Made by a program: the position numbers and the translations under genes. A stretch of 50,238 nucleotides of DNA from Planctomycetota bacterium (GTDB taxonomy: Bacteria > Planctomycetota > Planctomycetia > Gemmatales > Gemmataceae). The stretch is taken from positions 1-50,238 of the forward strand of contig JAKBCS010000018.1 in NCBI GenBank assembly GCA_021807595.1, written 5' to 3'. Of this stretch, positions 37,590 through 47,593 are shown piece after piece; positions within the stretch are counted from its first letter, which is position 1; every line of letters starts with the position of its first letter. The notes below the pieces were generated by a model that saw only the letters and a list, made by a program, of their open reading frames with translations, ran no database searches and was not told where the DNA came from.

Positions 37590-38297
37590 ATGGCTCTGGG
37601 TTTGTTGGGTTTAAAAGTCGGCATGACGCAGGTTTACGACGACGAGGGCAAGATCGCCCCCGTGACCGTGCTGCAAATCGGCCCCTGTCCGATTTTGCAA
37701 GTGCGAAATGTGGAGCGCGACGGATACGATGCCGTTCAGTTGGGTTTTCTGAGCAAAGCGCGACACAAGGCCAGCCGCGCCGAACGCGGGCATGTGTCCA
37801 ATGCCTTGGAATCCCGACGGCGACAGGCTCGCCTGAAGGCGGGAGTTCAGATCTCGGCCAAAGCCGACTGCGAACCGCCGCGGTTCGTCCGCGAGTTTCG
37901 CTTGGAGCAGGCGGGCGATTTTCAGATCGGCTCCCTCTTGAAGGCCGGCGATGTCTTTAAGGACATCAAAGCCGTCGATGTCACCGGAACCTCGAAGGGG
38001 CGCGGCACCGCCGGTGCGATGAAACGCCATAACTTTGCCGGCTTACCCGCCAGCCACGGTGTCAAGAAGCATCACCGTTCGCCGGGAAGCGTCGGTTCGC
38101 TCGCCAGCAATCGCGGCAGCGGCAGACCGAAGCGCGGCAAACGCTTGGCCGGTCGCTACGGCGCGGAACGAGTCACCATCCGCAATCTTCGCATCGTGCG
38201 CATTGACGCCGAAAACCATCTCGTCCTCGTCGAGGGGGCCGTCCCTGGCCCCAACGGAGGCTTGGTGTCCATCCGACCGACGAATAAGAAGAAGTGA
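37590..38297 (+). CDS. rplC: 50S ribosomal protein L3
   Basis: A 235-residue L3. MALGLLGLKVGMTQVYDDEG is the family N-terminus; TGTSKGRGTAGAMKRHNF and HGVKKHHRSPGSVGS form the long loop that reaches the peptidyl-transferase centre, including the conserved His/Arg-rich section. After that the usual PGRVxKGxKMAGxMG is replaced by a Ser/Arg version (NRGSGRPKRGKRLAGRYG). GAGGTG lies 6 bases before the ATG. It stands alone, between mfd and a zinc-ribbon gene, not in an S10-type ribosomal operon. Confidence 0.95.
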   Translation: MALGLLGLKVGMTQVYDDEGKIAPVTVLQIGPCPILQVRNVERDGYDAVQLGFLSKARHKASRAERGHVSNALESRRRQARLKAGVQISAKADCEPPRFVREFRLEQAGDFQIGSLLKAGDVFKDIKAVDVTGTSKGRGTAGAMKRHNFAGLPASHGVKKHHRSPGSVGSLASNRGSGRPKRGKRLAGRYGAERVTIRNLRIVRIDAENHLVLVEGAVPGPNGGLVSIRPTNKKK

Positions 38298-38397: not shown

Positions 38398-38658
38398 ATG
38401 CGCTTTCGCTGTCCGAATTACCGGCAAATCCTCGAGTTGACTCCGTACAGGCCAACGCTCCTCTGCCCGGCTTGCGAGCGTTGGTGTCGCATTCCTATTC
38501 CCGATGAGTTCGAGTTGAGTGGTGGACCGACGCTTACCGCTCCAGCGCCGTCACCTCGCGCGCCGTCTTCCAAAGAGTCGAGCGGGCAATACTCCGAGAG
38601 AGTGCCTCCTCGTTCCACCGACGAGGTCGGAACCGAGAAGGCGCGTTATCCTTGCTAA
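38398..38658 (+). CDS. small zinc-ribbon-like protein with one lost cysteine
   Basis: An 86-residue protein. MRFRCPNYRQILEL, then LLCPACERWCRIPIP, looks like a two-knuckle zinc ribbon (CxxC...CxxC) in which the second Cys of the first knuckle is Tyr. The rest is Ser/Pro/Arg-rich, without structure. GGAGGACG lies about 8 bases upstream of the ATG. It overlaps no other gene; the next gene starts 91 bp later. It could be a working protein using Cys in CERWC as replacement ligand, or a decaying one. Confidence 0.55.
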   Translation: MRFRCPNYRQILELTPYRPTLLCPACERWCRIPIPDEFELSGGPTLTAPAPSPRAPSSKESSGQYSERVPPRSTDEVGTEKARYPC

Positions 38659-38749
38659 AACCCAAAATCCGCGTCGTTCCCGCCATTGCTTCGGGTGGTA
38701 TGGTTTAATGGAAGCAGAAGATCGCTGGTCTCCAAGCCAAGGGGTTCTC

Positions 38750-40780
38750 GTGAATTCTCCATTGCTGCGCCTCATCGCCATCGCGGTGCTATTCGTGTTG
38801 CCGTTCTCCGCTCTACGCTCCGAGCCGAGCGAAGCGAAACTCGTCGAGCGGGACGATGCCGACGTGCGCTTGAAAGGCTTCCTCGCTCCCGAAGGGGTGA
38901 AGATCGAGATCGTGGCCGACGCGCCGACGGTTGCCTCCGACTCGGTGCTGACGTTCGGCGACGACGGCACGGCCTACGTTCTCGAAAAGCGAACCGATGC
39001 GAGCGGCGAAAAAGCGAAGAGTAAAGATGTCGTTAAAGTGCTAAAAGACGTGCAAGGCAAGGGCGTCTACGACTCGGCCAGCGTCCTCTTCGAAGTCGAA
39101 CCATCGGCGTATCTCCTCTACCACGACCACGGGTTGTACTTGGGCGGCGAGACATTGCGTCGCTATCGTCTGGGGCGTGCGGGACACCCGGCGAAAGGAG
39201 AGTTGGTTGCCAAGGGGTTCGGCGGATCTTCGCGGCGGCGGATTCTGGGGTTATCCCTCGGTTCGGACGGGTGGCTCTATTTGGGGGTGGAATCGGGCGA
39301 TCACCGCGTCGAGGGAACCGACGGCAGCCGCGCGCTGGTTCTCGGTACGGGCGCAATCTTCCGCTGTCGACCGGATGGCTCGCGCATGGAGGTCTTTGCC
39401 TCCGGATTTCAACGTCCTCAAGGCGCGCTTATTTTCGATGCGTTCGGCAACGGTTTTCAGTCCGAGACAATTGAATCCGAGGGAGACAAATCGAGAGGCG
39501 GGCGATTGCTCCACGTTGCCGAAGCGTGCGATTTCGGCTGGAGGCAGCGGATGGGAGGTCGCGTCATACGGGCCGACCGCTTTCGTACCGCGCTGAACGG
39601 CGAGCTGCCGGGCAAGATGCCTCCTCTGCACGGAGCCGGGCCTGGCCCGTCGGCTGGCTCCATGATCTACGGCGAGACGCGCTTCCCGGCAAAGTATCGC
39701 GGATTGCTCTACGCAGCCGAAACGGAACGAAATTCGATTCGCGCCTACCGCCTCCAATCCAAAGGCGCTTCTTTTGTAGTCGCCGACGAATTTGTCTTTC
39801 TGAAAAGCAAAGACACGCACTTTCTGCCCAAGCAATTGATAACAGGACCGGACGGCGCAATCTACATAGTCGAGCAAAGAGGGAGGATATATCGCTTATC
39901 GTGGAGTGGAACGAAGACGGAGGGCGCGCTGCCATTGTCTCCGATGGATCGCTGGTTGAAGATCGTCCGTCAGAGTGACGACCAATTGATCGCGTCGTTG
40001 GCCGACGAGAATGCTTTGCGGCGTGCCCAGGCACAATGTGAGCTGACGCGGCGCGGCGCGCGCAATCGGGTTCCGCTTCTCAAACTGGTTCGCGATGGCG
40101 AACGGCCATTGCCGGCGCGTCTGGCGTCGTTGAGCGTACTCGAATCGTTCTGGAACGAAGACGTTCAAAAGGCGTGTGAAACGGTTTTGGCGGACGGCGA
40201 GTCTTCGCTCAGGCGCGCGGCTGCCGAATTGCTTGGACGGAACGCGGCCAGGCGAGACATGCGCGTACACGAGTGCCTGTTGAAAGTGTTGAACGAGAAC
40301 GATTTACCGCTGCGGCGCGCGGCCGCGTTGGCGATGGGACGCCTCGCGGCTCAAGGCGCGCCGGACGTCCTGGTCAATACGCTGGCCTTTGATGGCGGCG
40401 ACGATGCGTACCTCTTCGACGGGCTGATTCGCTCTCTCGAACGACTCGGAAGGCCAGGCATCGAACGCTTGCTCGCTCTGGCCGAGTCCGGCGTCAAAAA
40501 AGATACCGACAGGGTCGTTCGCGTGTTCGCCGCTCTGCGCGTCCGACCCGGCTTCGAGGGATTGCCGATGTTGTTAAAGTATCCCCATCTGACGGTTACG
40601 CAGCGCGCGCAGCTAATCCGCTCGTGCGGAAACTATCTGCTCGATCCGCCCGTAACGCTCGATGCGATCGTGGCGTACTTGTCCACTCCAGCCGGTCAAG
40701 CGCCGGAAGTGAAGCAGGCTGGCGCGGACCTGTTGGCCGCGCGACCGGACATGCCGGCACCGAAGAAGCCCAATCCGTGA
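38750..40780 (+). CDS. PVC-type beta-propeller/HEAT-repeat dehydrogenase-like protein
   Basis: A 676-residue exported protein. GTG at 38750 has AAGGGG 5 bases before it and begins a signal peptide (MNSPLLRLIAIAVLFVLPFS). Residues about 40-400 are a six-bladed propeller of the sorbosone/glucose dehydrogenase type (FLAPEGVKIEIVADAP; LGLSLGSDGWLYLGVESGDH; LITGPDGAIYIVEQRGRIYRL). HEAT-like repeats follow (SSLRRAAAELLGRNAARRD; LPLRRAAALAMGRLAAQGAP). Planctomycetes have many such proteins with a C-terminal haem c domain; no CxxCH is present, so this one ends after the repeats. The substrate is unknown. Confidence 0.85.
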   Translation: MNSPLLRLIAIAVLFVLPFSALRSEPSEAKLVERDDADVRLKGFLAPEGVKIEIVADAPTVASDSVLTFGDDGTAYVLEKRTDASGEKAKSKDVVKVLKDVQGKGVYDSASVLFEVEPSAYLLYHDHGLYLGGETLRRYRLGRAGHPAKGELVAKGFGGSSRRRILGLSLGSDGWLYLGVESGDHRVEGTDGSRALVLGTGAIFRCRPDGSRMEVFASGFQRPQGALIFDAFGNGFQSETIESEGDKSRGGRLLHVAEACDFGWRQRMGGRVIRADRFRTALNGELPGKMPPLHGAGPGPSAGSMIYGETRFPAKYRGLLYAAETERNSIRAYRLQSKGASFVVADEFVFLKSKDTHFLPKQLITGPDGAIYIVEQRGRIYRLSWSGTKTEGALPLSPMDRWLKIVRQSDDQLIASLADENALRRAQAQCELTRRGARNRVPLLKLVRDGERPLPARLASLSVLESFWNEDVQKACETVLADGESSLRRAAAELLGRNAARRDMRVHECLLKVLNENDLPLRRAAALAMGRLAAQGAPDVLVNTLAFDGGDDAYLFDGLIRSLERLGRPGIERLLALAESGVKKDTDRVVRVFAALRVRPGFEGLPMLLKYPHLTVTQRAQLIRSCGNYLLDPPVTLDAIVAYLSTPAGQAPEVKQAGADLLAARPDMPAPKKPNP

Positions 40781-41828: not shown

Positions 41829-41966
41829 GCGATCCGAGAAACCGCCTCTCTCCCTGGACTCAGAGGGAGAGGGGTTGGGATGAGGGGGTGAGTTCTCGGA
41901 GAATTCTTGCCCCAACCCCTCTCCCCCGAGTACCGGGGAGAGGGAGGCTTTGCGGATAGTCTCTAA
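41829..41966. repeat. dispersed palindromic repeat, family A long copy
   Basis: Begins GCGATCCGAGAAACC and ends GGCTTTGCGGATAGTCTC, like 46133-46196. It holds an extra inner palindrome, GAGAGGGGTTGGG paired with CCCCAACCCCTCTC. It fills most of the region between the HU promoter and the kinase gene; 41628-41828 shows nothing else I can identify. Confidence 0.8.
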
Positions 41967-42020
41967 CGCGCGAGCCGAATCCAAATGCGCTCGAAGGAAG
42001 ATCCGTCGAGGATTTCGACC

Positions 42021-44684
42021 ATGCCCCTCGTCAAGGAACCACACGCCGAGCCGATTGCGGGCTATCGCCTTCTCGAACCACTCGGCAAGGGTGGATTCGG
42101 CGAAGTGTGGAAGTGCGTGGCTCCCGGCGGACTGCACAAAGCCATCAAATTCCTCAGCGGAGGCACACCCGACGATCCGCATCGCTCCACCGCCGAACAA
42201 GAATTGCGCGCGTTGCAGCTGATGAAATCGATTCGCCATCCGTTTTTATTGTCCATCGAACGGATTGAAGTTTTCGATCGCGAGGCGGCCATCGTGATGG
42301 AGTTGGCGGATCGTAGTCTGCACGACCTACTCAAGGAACGACAAGCGGCGGGACAGCGGGGGATCGCGCGCGGCGAATTGCTCGGATACCTGCGCGAGGC
42401 CGCCGAAGCCATCGACCTTCTCAACCAAGAATACGGTCTGCAACATCTGGATGTCAAACCCCAGAATCTCTTTCTGATCGGTCGGCACGTCAAAGTGGCG
42501 GATTTCGGGTTGATGGCCAGTCTCAGCGAGCTGCAAGAGTTCACAAACGGAAAGCGTCGCGGCGAGTCGTTGACACCCTTGTACGCGGCTCCCGAAACTT
42601 TCCTCGGCCGTTTCACCCTGTTTTCCGATCAATATAGTTTGGCCGTGGTCTATCAAGAAACACTCACGGGAACCTTGCCGTTCGGCGGGACTTCGTATCG
42701 TCAGCTGGCAATGCAGCACGTCCGCGAATCGCCCAATGGAGACCAATTGCCTCCGTCGGATCGCCCGATTGTGGCCCGCGCATTGTCCAAGGAGCCGCGC
42801 GAACGGTATGCGTCGTGTTCCGCCTTCGTGCAAGCATTGACCGAGGCCGACCGTATGCCGGCGAGCGCCGCCAGCATCGTCCCTAGGTCGGAGGTCGGCC
42901 ACCCTTCAACGGAGAGGACGTTAGAGACGAGTGCCAAAACCGTGGCTGCCGCCGTGACTCCGATACCGGAGGCCGCTCCAGCGTCACACGAAACGAGTAC
43001 CTTTCTCACGGGACATCATCTGTTGGAATGCCTCCTTCGCCATCCTGGCGGCGAAGTCTGGACGGCGCAAGCGAGCGATGGACGGAAACGCCTCGTCAGG
43101 ATCATCTACGGCTACGATCCGAACGAAGATCGTCCAGAAGGCGATCCGTTGGCGCGATTGCGCCAGCTGCGACATCCGGCCTTGCCTCGCTTCGAATCGG
43201 CGACGGAATCCGGAGCGCGGCTCGCTCTGCTCACCGATTTGCCAGACGGCTCGCTCGCCGATCGCTTGCGAGAACGACGACAAATCGGACAAGACGGGAT
43301 TCCTCGCGCAGAATTGTTGGCGTATTTGCGTCAGGCCGCGGAGGCCGTGGACGACCTTTACGAAGAGACGCGGCTCCAACATCTCGGTTTGTCGCCGAGG
43401 CATCTCGTGCTGCGCGGGGGCCGTTTGTATCTCCTCGATTTCGCTCTCGCCGAACTGTTTTGGCTGCCCGGAGGCAACAACCTCGGAGCGCTGAATCCCC
43501 GTTACTCCGCACCCGAACTGTTCGACGGTCAGATCGGACGCCGCGCAGACCAGTACAGTCTGGCCTTGATTTATCAAGAGTTGCTTACCGGAGTTCATGC
43601 GTTTCGCAATCTCCATCCGCGTCCCCTGGCCTTGGCTCGTCAAAGAGGGAAACCCGATCTCAGCATGTTGCCAAGTGCCGATCGATCTGTTATTGCCCAG
43701 GCGTTGCATCCCGATCCCGATAGTCGCTTTCCAAACAGCTCGGCACTCTTCGAAGCCCTCGACACCGCGACCGGCCAAGTCGCATCGGGGACGCTCAGTA
43801 CCCACGTTCGCATCGCCACCGTTTCCTTGCCGCCTTCCGCGACGCTGGAGGCGAGAGAATCGGTCGCCGCGTCGCCTTCCCTCTGGACGAGTTCGGTCGA
43901 AGAGATGAAGTGCTTTGTCGCTCGACAAGTTGCCGATGCGGCAGGCGGATTTGAAATCCGCAAGCACTCGTCGCTGCGCTATCGAGTGCTACATCGCACC
44001 GATCCCGTCTCGTTGGCGACTCTCGAACACCGCGCGCACGGCCGGATTGTTCCTGCTACATTGCCTCTCAAATTGGGAGGATTTGAAGCAGAATGGAAGC
44101 CTCAACGCCTGAAGTACCCCGAAGATCCTCTCACTTGGGGAGACGATGGAAGTCTCATTTGGAAGTGGCTATATCAGTTTTCTCTCGGCGGCGGTCTCCT
44201 CAGGCGCGCCCTCGGACGTTTGCCGAGTCTGCTACTGGAAATCGAATTGTCGAAGCCGATTATCGGGGACGCCTCCATTCTCGACGTCTTGTTTCGCCTT
44301 CTTCCTTGTCATTGCGGCCGGGACAAGGACGGTGAGGTTCTGGAGAAGGTGGCCCCTCATTTACTGCGGAGCCTGCGCGATTATCTTCAGCTGCTGCCGG
44401 ACCAACGCTCCGAGGAACGCTTCGCTTGGAACGCCGAACTGCGGGTGCAGCCCATACGCGGTGATGCCGAGTTTGGAGACGCCTTCGTTGCCTCGGCCCA
44501 CGACCTGTGCCGGAATGGATTGGGACTCGAACTGCCCTGTCGTCCCACGAGCGATTTGTTCCTGATACAGTGTCTGACTTCCGATCGGCCGCCGTTGGCG
44601 CTGCCGTTCAAATTGATCCACGCGCATCCTCTCGGCAATGGCCGCTACTTTGCCGGTGGGCGCTTCGCGTGGGAAATGGTATAG
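42021..44684 (+). CDS. kinase-pseudokinase-PilZ-like fusion protein
   Basis: An 887-residue protein with two Ser/Thr-kinase-like domains. Domain 1 (about 14-265) has GKGGFGEVW, Lys43 (HKAIKFL), catalytic HLDVKPQN with Asp144, and DFG (Asp161), so it is probably active although HRD is HLD. A Ser/Ala/Thr linker leads to domain 2 (about 330-590). There the catalytic loop is HLGLSPRHL, lacking the Asp at 456, and DFG is DFA (473-475); a pseudokinase. The C-terminus (about 620-887) is not kinase. It ends with AHDLCRNGLGLELP and YFAGGRFAWEMV, resembling a PilZ domain, with RVQPIR as a possible arginine motif. No membrane helix. Gene starts at ATG 42021 (GAGGA upstream). Confidence 0.85.
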   Translation: MPLVKEPHAEPIAGYRLLEPLGKGGFGEVWKCVAPGGLHKAIKFLSGGTPDDPHRSTAEQELRALQLMKSIRHPFLLSIERIEVFDREAAIVMELADRSLHDLLKERQAAGQRGIARGELLGYLREAAEAIDLLNQEYGLQHLDVKPQNLFLIGRHVKVADFGLMASLSELQEFTNGKRRGESLTPLYAAPETFLGRFTLFSDQYSLAVVYQETLTGTLPFGGTSYRQLAMQHVRESPNGDQLPPSDRPIVARALSKEPRERYASCSAFVQALTEADRMPASAASIVPRSEVGHPSTERTLETSAKTVAAAVTPIPEAAPASHETSTFLTGHHLLECLLRHPGGEVWTAQASDGRKRLVRIIYGYDPNEDRPEGDPLARLRQLRHPALPRFESATESGARLALLTDLPDGSLADRLRERRQIGQDGIPRAELLAYLRQAAEAVDDLYEETRLQHLGLSPRHLVLRGGRLYLLDFALAELFWLPGGNNLGALNPRYSAPELFDGQIGRRADQYSLALIYQELLTGVHAFRNLHPRPLALARQRGKPDLSMLPSADRSVIAQALHPDPDSRFPNSSALFEALDTATGQVASGTLSTHVRIATVSLPPSATLEARESVAASPSLWTSSVEEMKCFVARQVADAAGGFEIRKHSSLRYRVLHRTDPVSLATLEHRAHGRIVPATLPLKLGGFEAEWKPQRLKYPEDPLTWGDDGSLIWKWLYQFSLGGGLLRRALGRLPSLLLEIELSKPIIGDASILDVLFRLLPCHCGRDKDGEVLEKVAPHLLRSLRDYLQLLPDQRSEERFAWNAELRVQPIRGDAEFGDAFVASAHDLCRNGLGLELPCRPTSDLFLIQCLTSDRPPLALPFKLIHAHPLGNGRYFAGGRFAWEMV

Positions 44685-46084: not shown

Positions 46085-46196
46085 CCCCTCGGCGCTCTCT
46101 GCGTTCTCCGCGGTGAGATATTCGGGTTAGAAGCGATCCGAGAAGCCCCCTCTCCCCCTGAGTACGGGGGAGAGGGGCTTTGAGAACAGTCTCTCA
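46085..46196. repeat. composite repeat: GC-rich element and family A copy
   Basis: 46085-46116 reads CCCCTCGGCGCTCTC then TGCGTTCTCCGCGGTGA, a sequence I know as a common intergenic repeat in planctomycetes. Next, 46133-46196 is a family A copy (GCGATCCGAGAAGCC, CCCCTGAGTAC, GGGGGAGAGGGGC, AGTCTCTCA). The last bases include the stop codon of the kinase gene. Confidence 0.75.
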
Positions 46197-47474
46197 GCGT
46201 GAAGGGGTGGTTTTGCCGGTGTGCGGGGTCGTGCGATTCCAGAGTTGTTGCAGTTGATTGCCCAGATCGGGTAGGTACAAGAGGCAGCCGACGCCGACTA
46301 CCACCAAGACGAACACGAACAGAAACGTCCGCAGCAGCGCCTGAAAGTGCATCATCATCAGAGCGGGAGGCATTGGAAGACTTTCGAGCGTTCGGATCGC
46401 CGGCGCGGCCGAGGGCGCGAGAGCCGCGGCGGGTTTGAGCGCGGCAAACGGTTTCAACGCCTCGGCTGCGGCTCCCGGAGTTTGGAAGCGCTCTTCCGCT
46501 TTTTTGGCCAACATGCGATGCACGATAACGGAGAGTTCGGGAGGAAGATCGGGGCAAAAGCGCAGGATTGGTTCGGGCGGTTGCTGGACGTGCATCATCG
46601 TCAACTCGAACGTGCTGAGCGCGCGGAAGGGCGGCCTTCCGGATAAAAGTTGATAGAGAGTGCATCCTAGCGAGTAAATATCGCTGCGAATATCCACCGT
46701 CCCGCTGTTGCGCACTTGTTCGGGAGCCATGTATTCCGGAGTACCGACCATGATGCCTTCCCGCGTCAGTCCGTCGGCAGCCGCCAGGCCCGCGCCGTCC
46801 GGCGCGACCAAACGCGCCAGACCGAAATCGAGAATCTTCACGAGTGGGGAATCCGGCCAACCGTTGAGAATGCAGCCCGTCGAGGGACGGGCGTTGGCGA
46901 GCATCAGATTCGCCGGCTTGATGTCGCGGTGAACCATGCCGCACTCGTGGGCGTATTGCAATCCCAGCGCGACTAGCCGGGCAATCTCGCACGCCAACGT
47001 CTCGCTCGGCCGCCCGTACTCCGACATCAACCGAGCCGCGTCTTGACCTTCAATGTACTCCATCACCAGAAACCACAAGCCGTCCACTTCGGCCGCGTCG
47101 TGTGCCACCACGATGTTCGGGTGAATCAGGCGGGCGGCGTTGCGCACCTCGCGCTGGAAGCGAGCGCGGGCGACTTTGTCTTGCATCAAGCGCGGCGCGA
47201 TGATTTTCAAGGCGACCGTGCGATCCATGACCGGATGCACGGCTTTGTAGACCTGTCCCATGCCGCCGCCGCCAAGGAATTCGAGGATGCGGTATTGGCC
47301 GAGCATGCGTCCGGAGGGGATCAACTCGGCGGAGGGAGAATCGGCTTTCCTCCCCACATTTTCGACCGTGGCCGCCGTGTTCCCCTGTTCACTCGCGACG
47401 GAGTTGGCGAGAAAATCCGCCGTGGGAACGGGCGGCTGCAACGGAGTCGCCTTGCCCTCTTGCTCCGCTTTCAT
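46194..47474 (-). CDS. membrane-anchored Ser/Thr protein kinase
   Basis: A 426-residue Hanks-type kinase. The N-terminal 60 residues are variable; then GRMLGQYRILEFLGGGGMG (P-loop about 58-77), Lys in VALKII, catalytic HRDIKPANLML near 180, ILDFGLARL near 215 and the activation segment GTPEYMAPEQV. After the kinase domain an Ala/Pro-rich linker leads to one C-terminal membrane helix (about 390-412, LFVFVLVVVGVGCLLYL) and a short basic tail. There is no sensor domain, so input must come through partners. ATG at 47474 has CAGGAG 7 bases upstream. Its stop lies in a family A repeat. Confidence 0.93.
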   Translation of the reverse strand: MKAEQEGKATPLQPPVPTADFLANSVASEQGNTAATVENVGRKADSPSAELIPSGRMLGQYRILEFLGGGGMGQVYKAVHPVMDRTVALKIIAPRLMQDKVARARFQREVRNAARLIHPNIVVAHDAAEVDGLWFLVMEYIEGQDAARLMSEYGRPSETLACEIARLVALGLQYAHECGMVHRDIKPANLMLANARPSTGCILNGWPDSPLVKILDFGLARLVAPDGAGLAAADGLTREGIMVGTPEYMAPEQVRNSGTVDIRSDIYSLGCTLYQLLSGRPPFRALSTFELTMMHVQQPPEPILRFCPDLPPELSVIVHRMLAKKAEERFQTPGAAAEALKPFAALKPAAALAPSAAPAIRTLESLPMPPALMMMHFQALLRTFLFVFVLVVVGVGCLLYLPDLGNQLQQLWNRTTPHTGKTTPSR

Positions 47475-47593
47475 GCCGAGGCTCCTGCGAAATGTCTGGG
47501 CTCGTTTCAATCCGTCGTGAGGCGCGTAAAAGGCGCGTTGAAGACGAGGATAGTATATAAAAATCCTATCGCGGCGGTGCAGCGCCCCTTGTC

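Follow-up and report, generated by a model that had tools for sequence, protein, structure and literature searches.

A Planctomycete Protein Joining a Ser/Thr Kinase, a Pseudokinase, an Undescribed Domain, and a PilZ Domain

Results and Discussion

The window, a 50,238-nucleotide stretch of Gemmataceae DNA (contig JAKBCS010000018.1), was found to encode a protein in which an active-looking Hanks-type Ser/Thr kinase (K1), a pseudokinase (K2), an undescribed domain (MID), and a PilZ domain are joined in one chain. Between two major signaling systems of bacteria, the messenger cyclic di-GMP (c-di-GMP) and phosphorylation by Hanks-type kinases, few direct junctions are known, and a function is known for almost none of the bacterial pseudokinases; the present family unites all three. 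We give about an even chance to the reading that the protein is a c-di-GMP-gated Ser/Thr kinase, of which K2, MID, and PilZ would form the regulatory block.

Gene and Start Site

The gene occupies 42021..44684 of the forward strand, as defined from its open reading frame and the alignment of the family's start sites, and codes for 887 residues, the stop codon lying within these coordinates. If translation instead began at an ATG farther 5', at 41985, the product would have 899 residues. Since several relatives carry a start motif MP(L/V/I)xK at the position matching 42021 and a GAGG is located approximately 10 nt 5' of it, 42021 is likely the true start. Residues are numbered in the 887-residue frame, for which 12 was subtracted from the figures of the 899-residue frame. 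The peak 19-residue hydropathy was 1.3, a transmembrane-like stretch was absent from the 887-residue protein, and we regard the protein as cytosolic.

An Intact Kinase and a Constrained Pseudokinase

Two kinase stretches were detected by Pfam in the 887-residue protein. The first, K1 (42063..42854, forward strand; PF00069, E 1.5e-39), possesses every catalytic feature of a Hanks-type kinase, which are the G-loop, the VAIK Lys (K43), the αC Glu (E61), the HLD Asp (D144), the Asn (N149), and the DFG Asp (D161). It has HLD in place of HRD and is hence of the non-RD type. All five numbered residues are invariant in 17 of 17 homologues, in agreement with the first-pass annotation, which had described the first kinase as active-looking; judged from these residues, K1 appears to be an intact Ser/Thr kinase. 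It is connected to the second kinase stretch by a disordered and fast-evolving linker (42855..43001, forward strand; pLDDT <50 at 291–338 of the 899-residue frame).

The second stretch, K2 (43002..43760, forward strand), is a pseudokinase, for it retains a kinase fold, seen as a PF00069 stretch and as a second fold in the model, on which the catalytic residues are lost. A substitution table for this domain gave Arg for the VAIK Lys (R360, 43098–43100), Gly for the catalytic Asp in an HLG motif (G456, 43380–43388), His where kinases carry Asn (H461), and Ala for Gly in a DFA motif (A475, 43437–43445), all on the forward strand. The HLG and DFA motifs had already been read from the gene in the earlier annotation. 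The catalytic Asp is absent from all 31 distinct K2 domains, in which its position is occupied by G (15), A (5), N (3), S (3), M (2), C (2), or E (1). DFA was considered as a defining feature of K2 and rejected, because 15 of 17 homologues retain the Gly. The VAIK Lys is retained in only 9 of the 17 and the DFG Asp in only 10, which suggests that nucleotide binding by K2 is probably variable or absent.

A maximum-likelihood tree was constructed for 99 kinase domains, including 20 K2 domains. All 20 were located on one side of a branch with a support of 100/100, and this clade was nested in a group of HLD-type kinases containing K1, apart from the other kinases of the genome. Such a single clade within the HLD-type group points to one duplication of an HLD-type kinase; the K2 branches are long, and their finer placement is unsure. 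The source group of K1 and K2 is this HLD/HLDIKP-type group, which includes many of the loci L019–L070. Encoded there is a large set of HLDIKP-type planctomycete kinases, with ORFs of approximately 1200 residues and long C-terminal regions.

The dN/dS ratios were estimated by the Nei–Gojobori method for a single pair, the window gene and its nearest orthologue L001, for which dS of the domains was about 0.25–0.29. This pair gave 0.087 for K1, 0.068 for K2, 0.18 for MID, and 0.21 for PilZ, as compared with 0.54 for the linker between K1 and K2 and 0.42 for the second linker (43761..43889, forward strand; pLDDT <50 at 598–632 of the 899-residue frame). On this estimate, the ratio of 0.068 against 0.42–0.54 in the linkers indicates that the catalytically dead K2 is under strong constraint, and is as constrained as K1.

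The C-Terminal PilZ Domain

The C-terminal region at 44394..44681 (forward strand) is a genuine PilZ domain, and its c-di-GMP motif is largely canonical. Pfam PilZ (PF07238) stayed below detection for both the window protein and its C-terminus alone; it matched 14 of 17 homologues (best 3.3e-9) and 24 of 27 sequences in a wider set of relatives. An AlphaFold model of residues 620–887 built from 27 sequences (pLDDT 88, pTM 0.79) gave MrkH, PP4397, and BcsA with c-di-GMP among its best Foldseek matches. VIA-align superimposed the PilZ fold on 8u0i (PA0012 with c-di-GMP) with a Z-score of 10.2 and 1.6 Å over 82 residues, and also matched VCA0042, BcsA, Alg44, and numerous other PilZ chains. The first motif of the c-di-GMP site, RxxxR, is present as RSEER (44406..44420, forward strand), of which R800 is conserved in 27/27 and R796 in 24/27 relatives. 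The second, [D/N]xSxxG, is present as DLCRNG (44502..44519, forward strand), of which the Gly and the D/N position are conserved in 27/27 and the Ser in 24/27. The window protein thus has R796, R800, D828, and G833, together with Cys830 at the position of the Ser; its nearest orthologue has NLCRNG, likewise with Cys. When all columns of MID and PilZ were ranked by entropy, the top six were R800, G833, L789, D828, R796, and C830, so that the c-di-GMP motif supplies five of them.

A likeness to PilZ arising by chance was rejected from the Pfam matches in homologues, the motif conservation, and the fold matches, and chance is excluded for the observation as a whole by homologues, fold, and selection. 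The domain shares the fold and most of the c-di-GMP motif residues of the PilZ family, and differs from it in the Cys and in lying under Pfam detection. The first-pass annotation had extended the PilZ resemblance over the entire C-terminal region and proposed structure prediction of 620–887 as a check. The predicted fold does match PilZ, and the assignment stands for residues 792–887; residues from about 624 to 791 proved to be a separate domain.

The MID Domain

This separate domain, MID (43890..44393, forward strand), is an alpha+beta domain of approximately 165 residues, delimited by the model (pLDDT 88), the VIA-align matches, and profile matches. No Pfam family covering it was found. Its core was modeled as strand-helix-four strands-helix, comprising two helices and five strands. 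Among the VIA-align matches were two KA1 domains, from SAD (Z 9.7) and from MARK3 (Z 8.4), with rmsd values of 3.5–4.3 Å, as well as the CIPK14 regulatory domain and the METTL16 KA1 domain; START folds were close behind (Z 7–8.3). The KA1 profile PF02149 gave no match over cut-off at the locus or elsewhere in the genome, and no similarity in sequence connecting MID with KA1 or with any PDB chain was found. In view of these rmsd values and the absent sequence link, the modeled fold is called KA1-like (or START-like) and is not assigned as KA1. MID resembles the KA1 domain of SAD/MARK kinases in this core, a likeness at the fold level only, and in being located C-terminal to a kinase; it differs in also occurring behind GGDEF domains.

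MID is not confined to PilZ-linked kinases. It is located C-terminal to ordinary PilZ-less kinases, twice in the window's own genome and at four loci of relatives, and it is also carried by four HD-PAS-GGDEF proteins of other Planctomycetia, in their last 110 or so residues. A profile of these GGDEF tails recovered the MIDs of kinases, for which the best values were 1e-9 without PilZ and 3e-6 with PilZ (nominal database of 100,000), and hhalign gave a probability of 97 between the GGDEF tails and the PilZ-linked MIDs. Another 15 genomes of the class contained MID alone. GGDEF-MID proteins were detected only in relatives of the class and not in the genome of the window itself. A domain common to proteins that make and read the messenger would add a new link to planctomycete signaling.

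Distribution and Architectures of the Family

When the genomes of 84,980 species were scanned, the near-identical orthologue L001 (91%) was recovered together with approximately 15 more full-length homologues with 35–41% identity. Nearly all of these records are named planctomycetes, many of them Gemmataceae. Full-length homologues were found across the order, in which the C-terminal profile matched 76 of 102 genomes, many matches spanning MID and PilZ. In a 294-genome sample of the phylum, in which scoring was restricted to the best few candidates of each genome, the kinase part was widespread; outside the order, the matches listed were to the kinase region only, and none showed the full-length architecture.

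Among the fetched loci, the complete kinase-pseudokinase-MID-PilZ arrangement was observed in the window and at 16 others (L001–L015 and L017). Kinase-MID-PilZ proteins that lack the pseudokinase occur in the same genome (contig C14, locus L113) and in Gemmata-type relatives, so that the pseudokinase is dispensable for some kinase-PilZ proteins; the paralogue at L113:3977-5824 matches Pfam PilZ at 2.4e-8 and carries DISLGG, a canonical form of the motif. A further architecture, kinase-MID, has no PilZ. Pseudokinase-MID-PilZ proteins without a kinase were found at seven sister-family loci (L151, L158–L162, and L168) and at L164, and the likely kinase-less forms thus belong mostly to this sister family. 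The existence of such stand-alone proteins suggests that pseudokinase-MID-PilZ is an independent module, and judging from these architectures, the block moves as a unit. The forms with the kinase, without the kinase, and without the pseudokinase constitute natural controls, through which the role of a bacterial pseudokinase becomes directly testable.

A second dual-kinase protein of the genome seems to be divided between contigs C137 and C130; in the tree, each half pairs with L009. C130 was considered as a natural kinase-less form and dismissed, since it ends at a contig edge and resembles, together with C137, a split orthologue of L009. At L018:5965-8609, a dual-kinase ORF overlaps a MID-PilZ ORF in a different frame, which may be an assembly frameshift or a real split.

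Relation to Known Systems

The earlier annotation proposed a link from c-di-GMP to Ser/Thr phosphorylation through an allosteric pseudokinase and knew of no description of it. A kinase-PilZ fusion as such is already on record, since Pkn1 of Myxococcus xanthus is a Ser/Thr kinase fused to PilZ (PMC8316039); the new elements are the pseudokinase, MID, and the surrounding family, the most novel being MID. Both Pkn1 and the window protein contain a Hanks-type kinase and PilZ in one chain, and they are likened here by domain types alone. A pseudokinase and MID are unreported in Pkn1, which belongs to a different phylum. The PilZ domain of Pkn1 is predicted not to bind c-di-GMP, and loss of Pkn1 reduces sporulation (PMC8316039). 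Within the open-access literature, no account was found of PilZ joined to a pseudokinase or occurring in a planctomycete kinase. PilZ goes unmentioned in a survey of the kinases of planctomycetes from 2024 (PMC11032199), and a review from 2025 on pseudokinases in bacteria (PMC12599244) is silent on both PilZ and Planctomycetes.

The bacterial pseudokinase families ActPs1-3, GLW, CP1, DYD, and DLHK of that review share with K2 a Hanks fold with lost catalytic residues, and CP1, DYD, and DLHK differ from it in retained residues and partners. DLHK is described there as keeping the HRD Asp, whereas the window protein has HLG and the Asp is absent throughout its family. CP1 is linked there to COG3899, whereas the neighbors of K2 are K1, MID, and PilZ, and the window protein has no other Pfam match. 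A Foldseek search with the model of the entire protein ranked TYK2 (4oli) first. The JAK kinases, including TYK2, likewise place an active kinase and a pseudokinase in one chain, a likeness at the level of arrangement only. The domain order is reversed, the kinase being first in the window protein; they serve a cytokine receptor, in contrast to the putative c-di-GMP sensor here; and K2 arises within bacterial HLD-type kinases in our tree, which held no JAK sequences.

Proposed Mechanism and Alternatives

The genome encodes three GGDEF proteins with an intact GGDEF/GGEEF signature and one weaker, together with ten PilZ matches, from which c-di-GMP is expected in the cell. In the gating reading given an even chance above, K1 would phosphorylate target proteins, and K2, which arose by a single duplication within that kinase type, is catalytically dead, and is retained by selection, would make up a regulatory block together with MID and PilZ. 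Binding of c-di-GMP to PilZ would alter the packing of this block on K1 in cis, by which inhibition may be either released or imposed, a logic resembling that of the JAK pseudokinase. Against this reading stand the Cys in the motif, the missing Pfam detection of the window PilZ, and the kinase-MID-PilZ paralogues, which manage without K2. The whole-protein model (pTM 0.38) did not predict interdomain packing and so lends no support to a K2–K1 contact; gating in cis is our inference. In the stand-alone proteins, the block could act only in trans. A wider reading, which we consider rather unlikely, extends this to a network of Planctomycetia in which a shared MID would unite the HD-PAS-GGDEF makers of c-di-GMP, ordinary kinases, and the kinase/pseudokinase-PilZ readers. 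The block would gate kinases in cis, or in trans as a stand-alone protein, and the network would be a second-messenger-driven bacterial counterpart of JAK-type gating.

It is possible, though we hold it only tentatively, that c-di-GMP sets location or partners and not catalysis, such that MID and PilZ anchor the protein to a membrane or complex and the pseudokinase is a platform docking substrates or other HLD-type kinases. The KA1 domain of MARK is a membrane-association module, and an autoinhibitory-sequence-KA1 fragment of SAD binds acidic lipids (PMC4686854). The similarity of MID to these domains favors such anchoring, as do its presence in GGDEF proteins and other kinases, expected of a localization module, and the stand-alone proteins, which have no kinase in cis to gate. 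The KA1 likeness is, however, of the fold only, START folds score nearly equally, and the genome lacks a Pfam KA1 match over cut-off. It is unlikely that the window PilZ has lost c-di-GMP binding through its Cys and become a protein–protein module, as may be the case for Pkn1. DLCRNG here and NLCRNG in the orthologue, the failure of Pfam to detect the domain, and the predicted non-binding of the Pkn1 PilZ would fit such a loss, but both Arg, the Asp, and the Gly are retained, and Cys is a small change from the Ser of 24/27 relatives.

The remaining alternatives concern K2 itself. It seems very unlikely that K2 is active in some noncanonical way, as a nucleotide sensor or in an AMPylation-like manner, as opposed to being purely structural. 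SelO and SidJ, pseudokinases capable of such activities (PMC12599244), are precedents, and the VAIK Lys and DFG Asp persist in about half of the homologues; each is nevertheless missing in some, and the window protein has Arg for the Lys. That K2 is a functionless, decaying relic of duplication is scarcely credible. The lost catalytic residues and long branches are what decay would leave, but the dN/dS of 0.068 in a dead domain contradicts it, and K2 is retained in many genera, also as a stand-alone protein with PilZ.

Surroundings of the Gene

As a clue to targets, the gene neighborhood showed no conservation beyond the nearest orthologue, and the protein had no match in PHROGs. A gene at 37590–38297 resembles ribosomal protein L3 and is the sole L3 match in the genome; the next ORF downstream of it, a long one at 38519–40780, is not ribosomal in appearance. 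A second Hanks-type kinase (HRDIKP) is encoded on the minus strand at 46194–47510, 1.5 kb downstream of the fusion gene. Immediately 5' of the fusion gene, at 41845–41950, the intergenic repeats CCTCTCCC/GGGAGAGG occur in both orientations and are possibly a dispersed repeat or a terminator.
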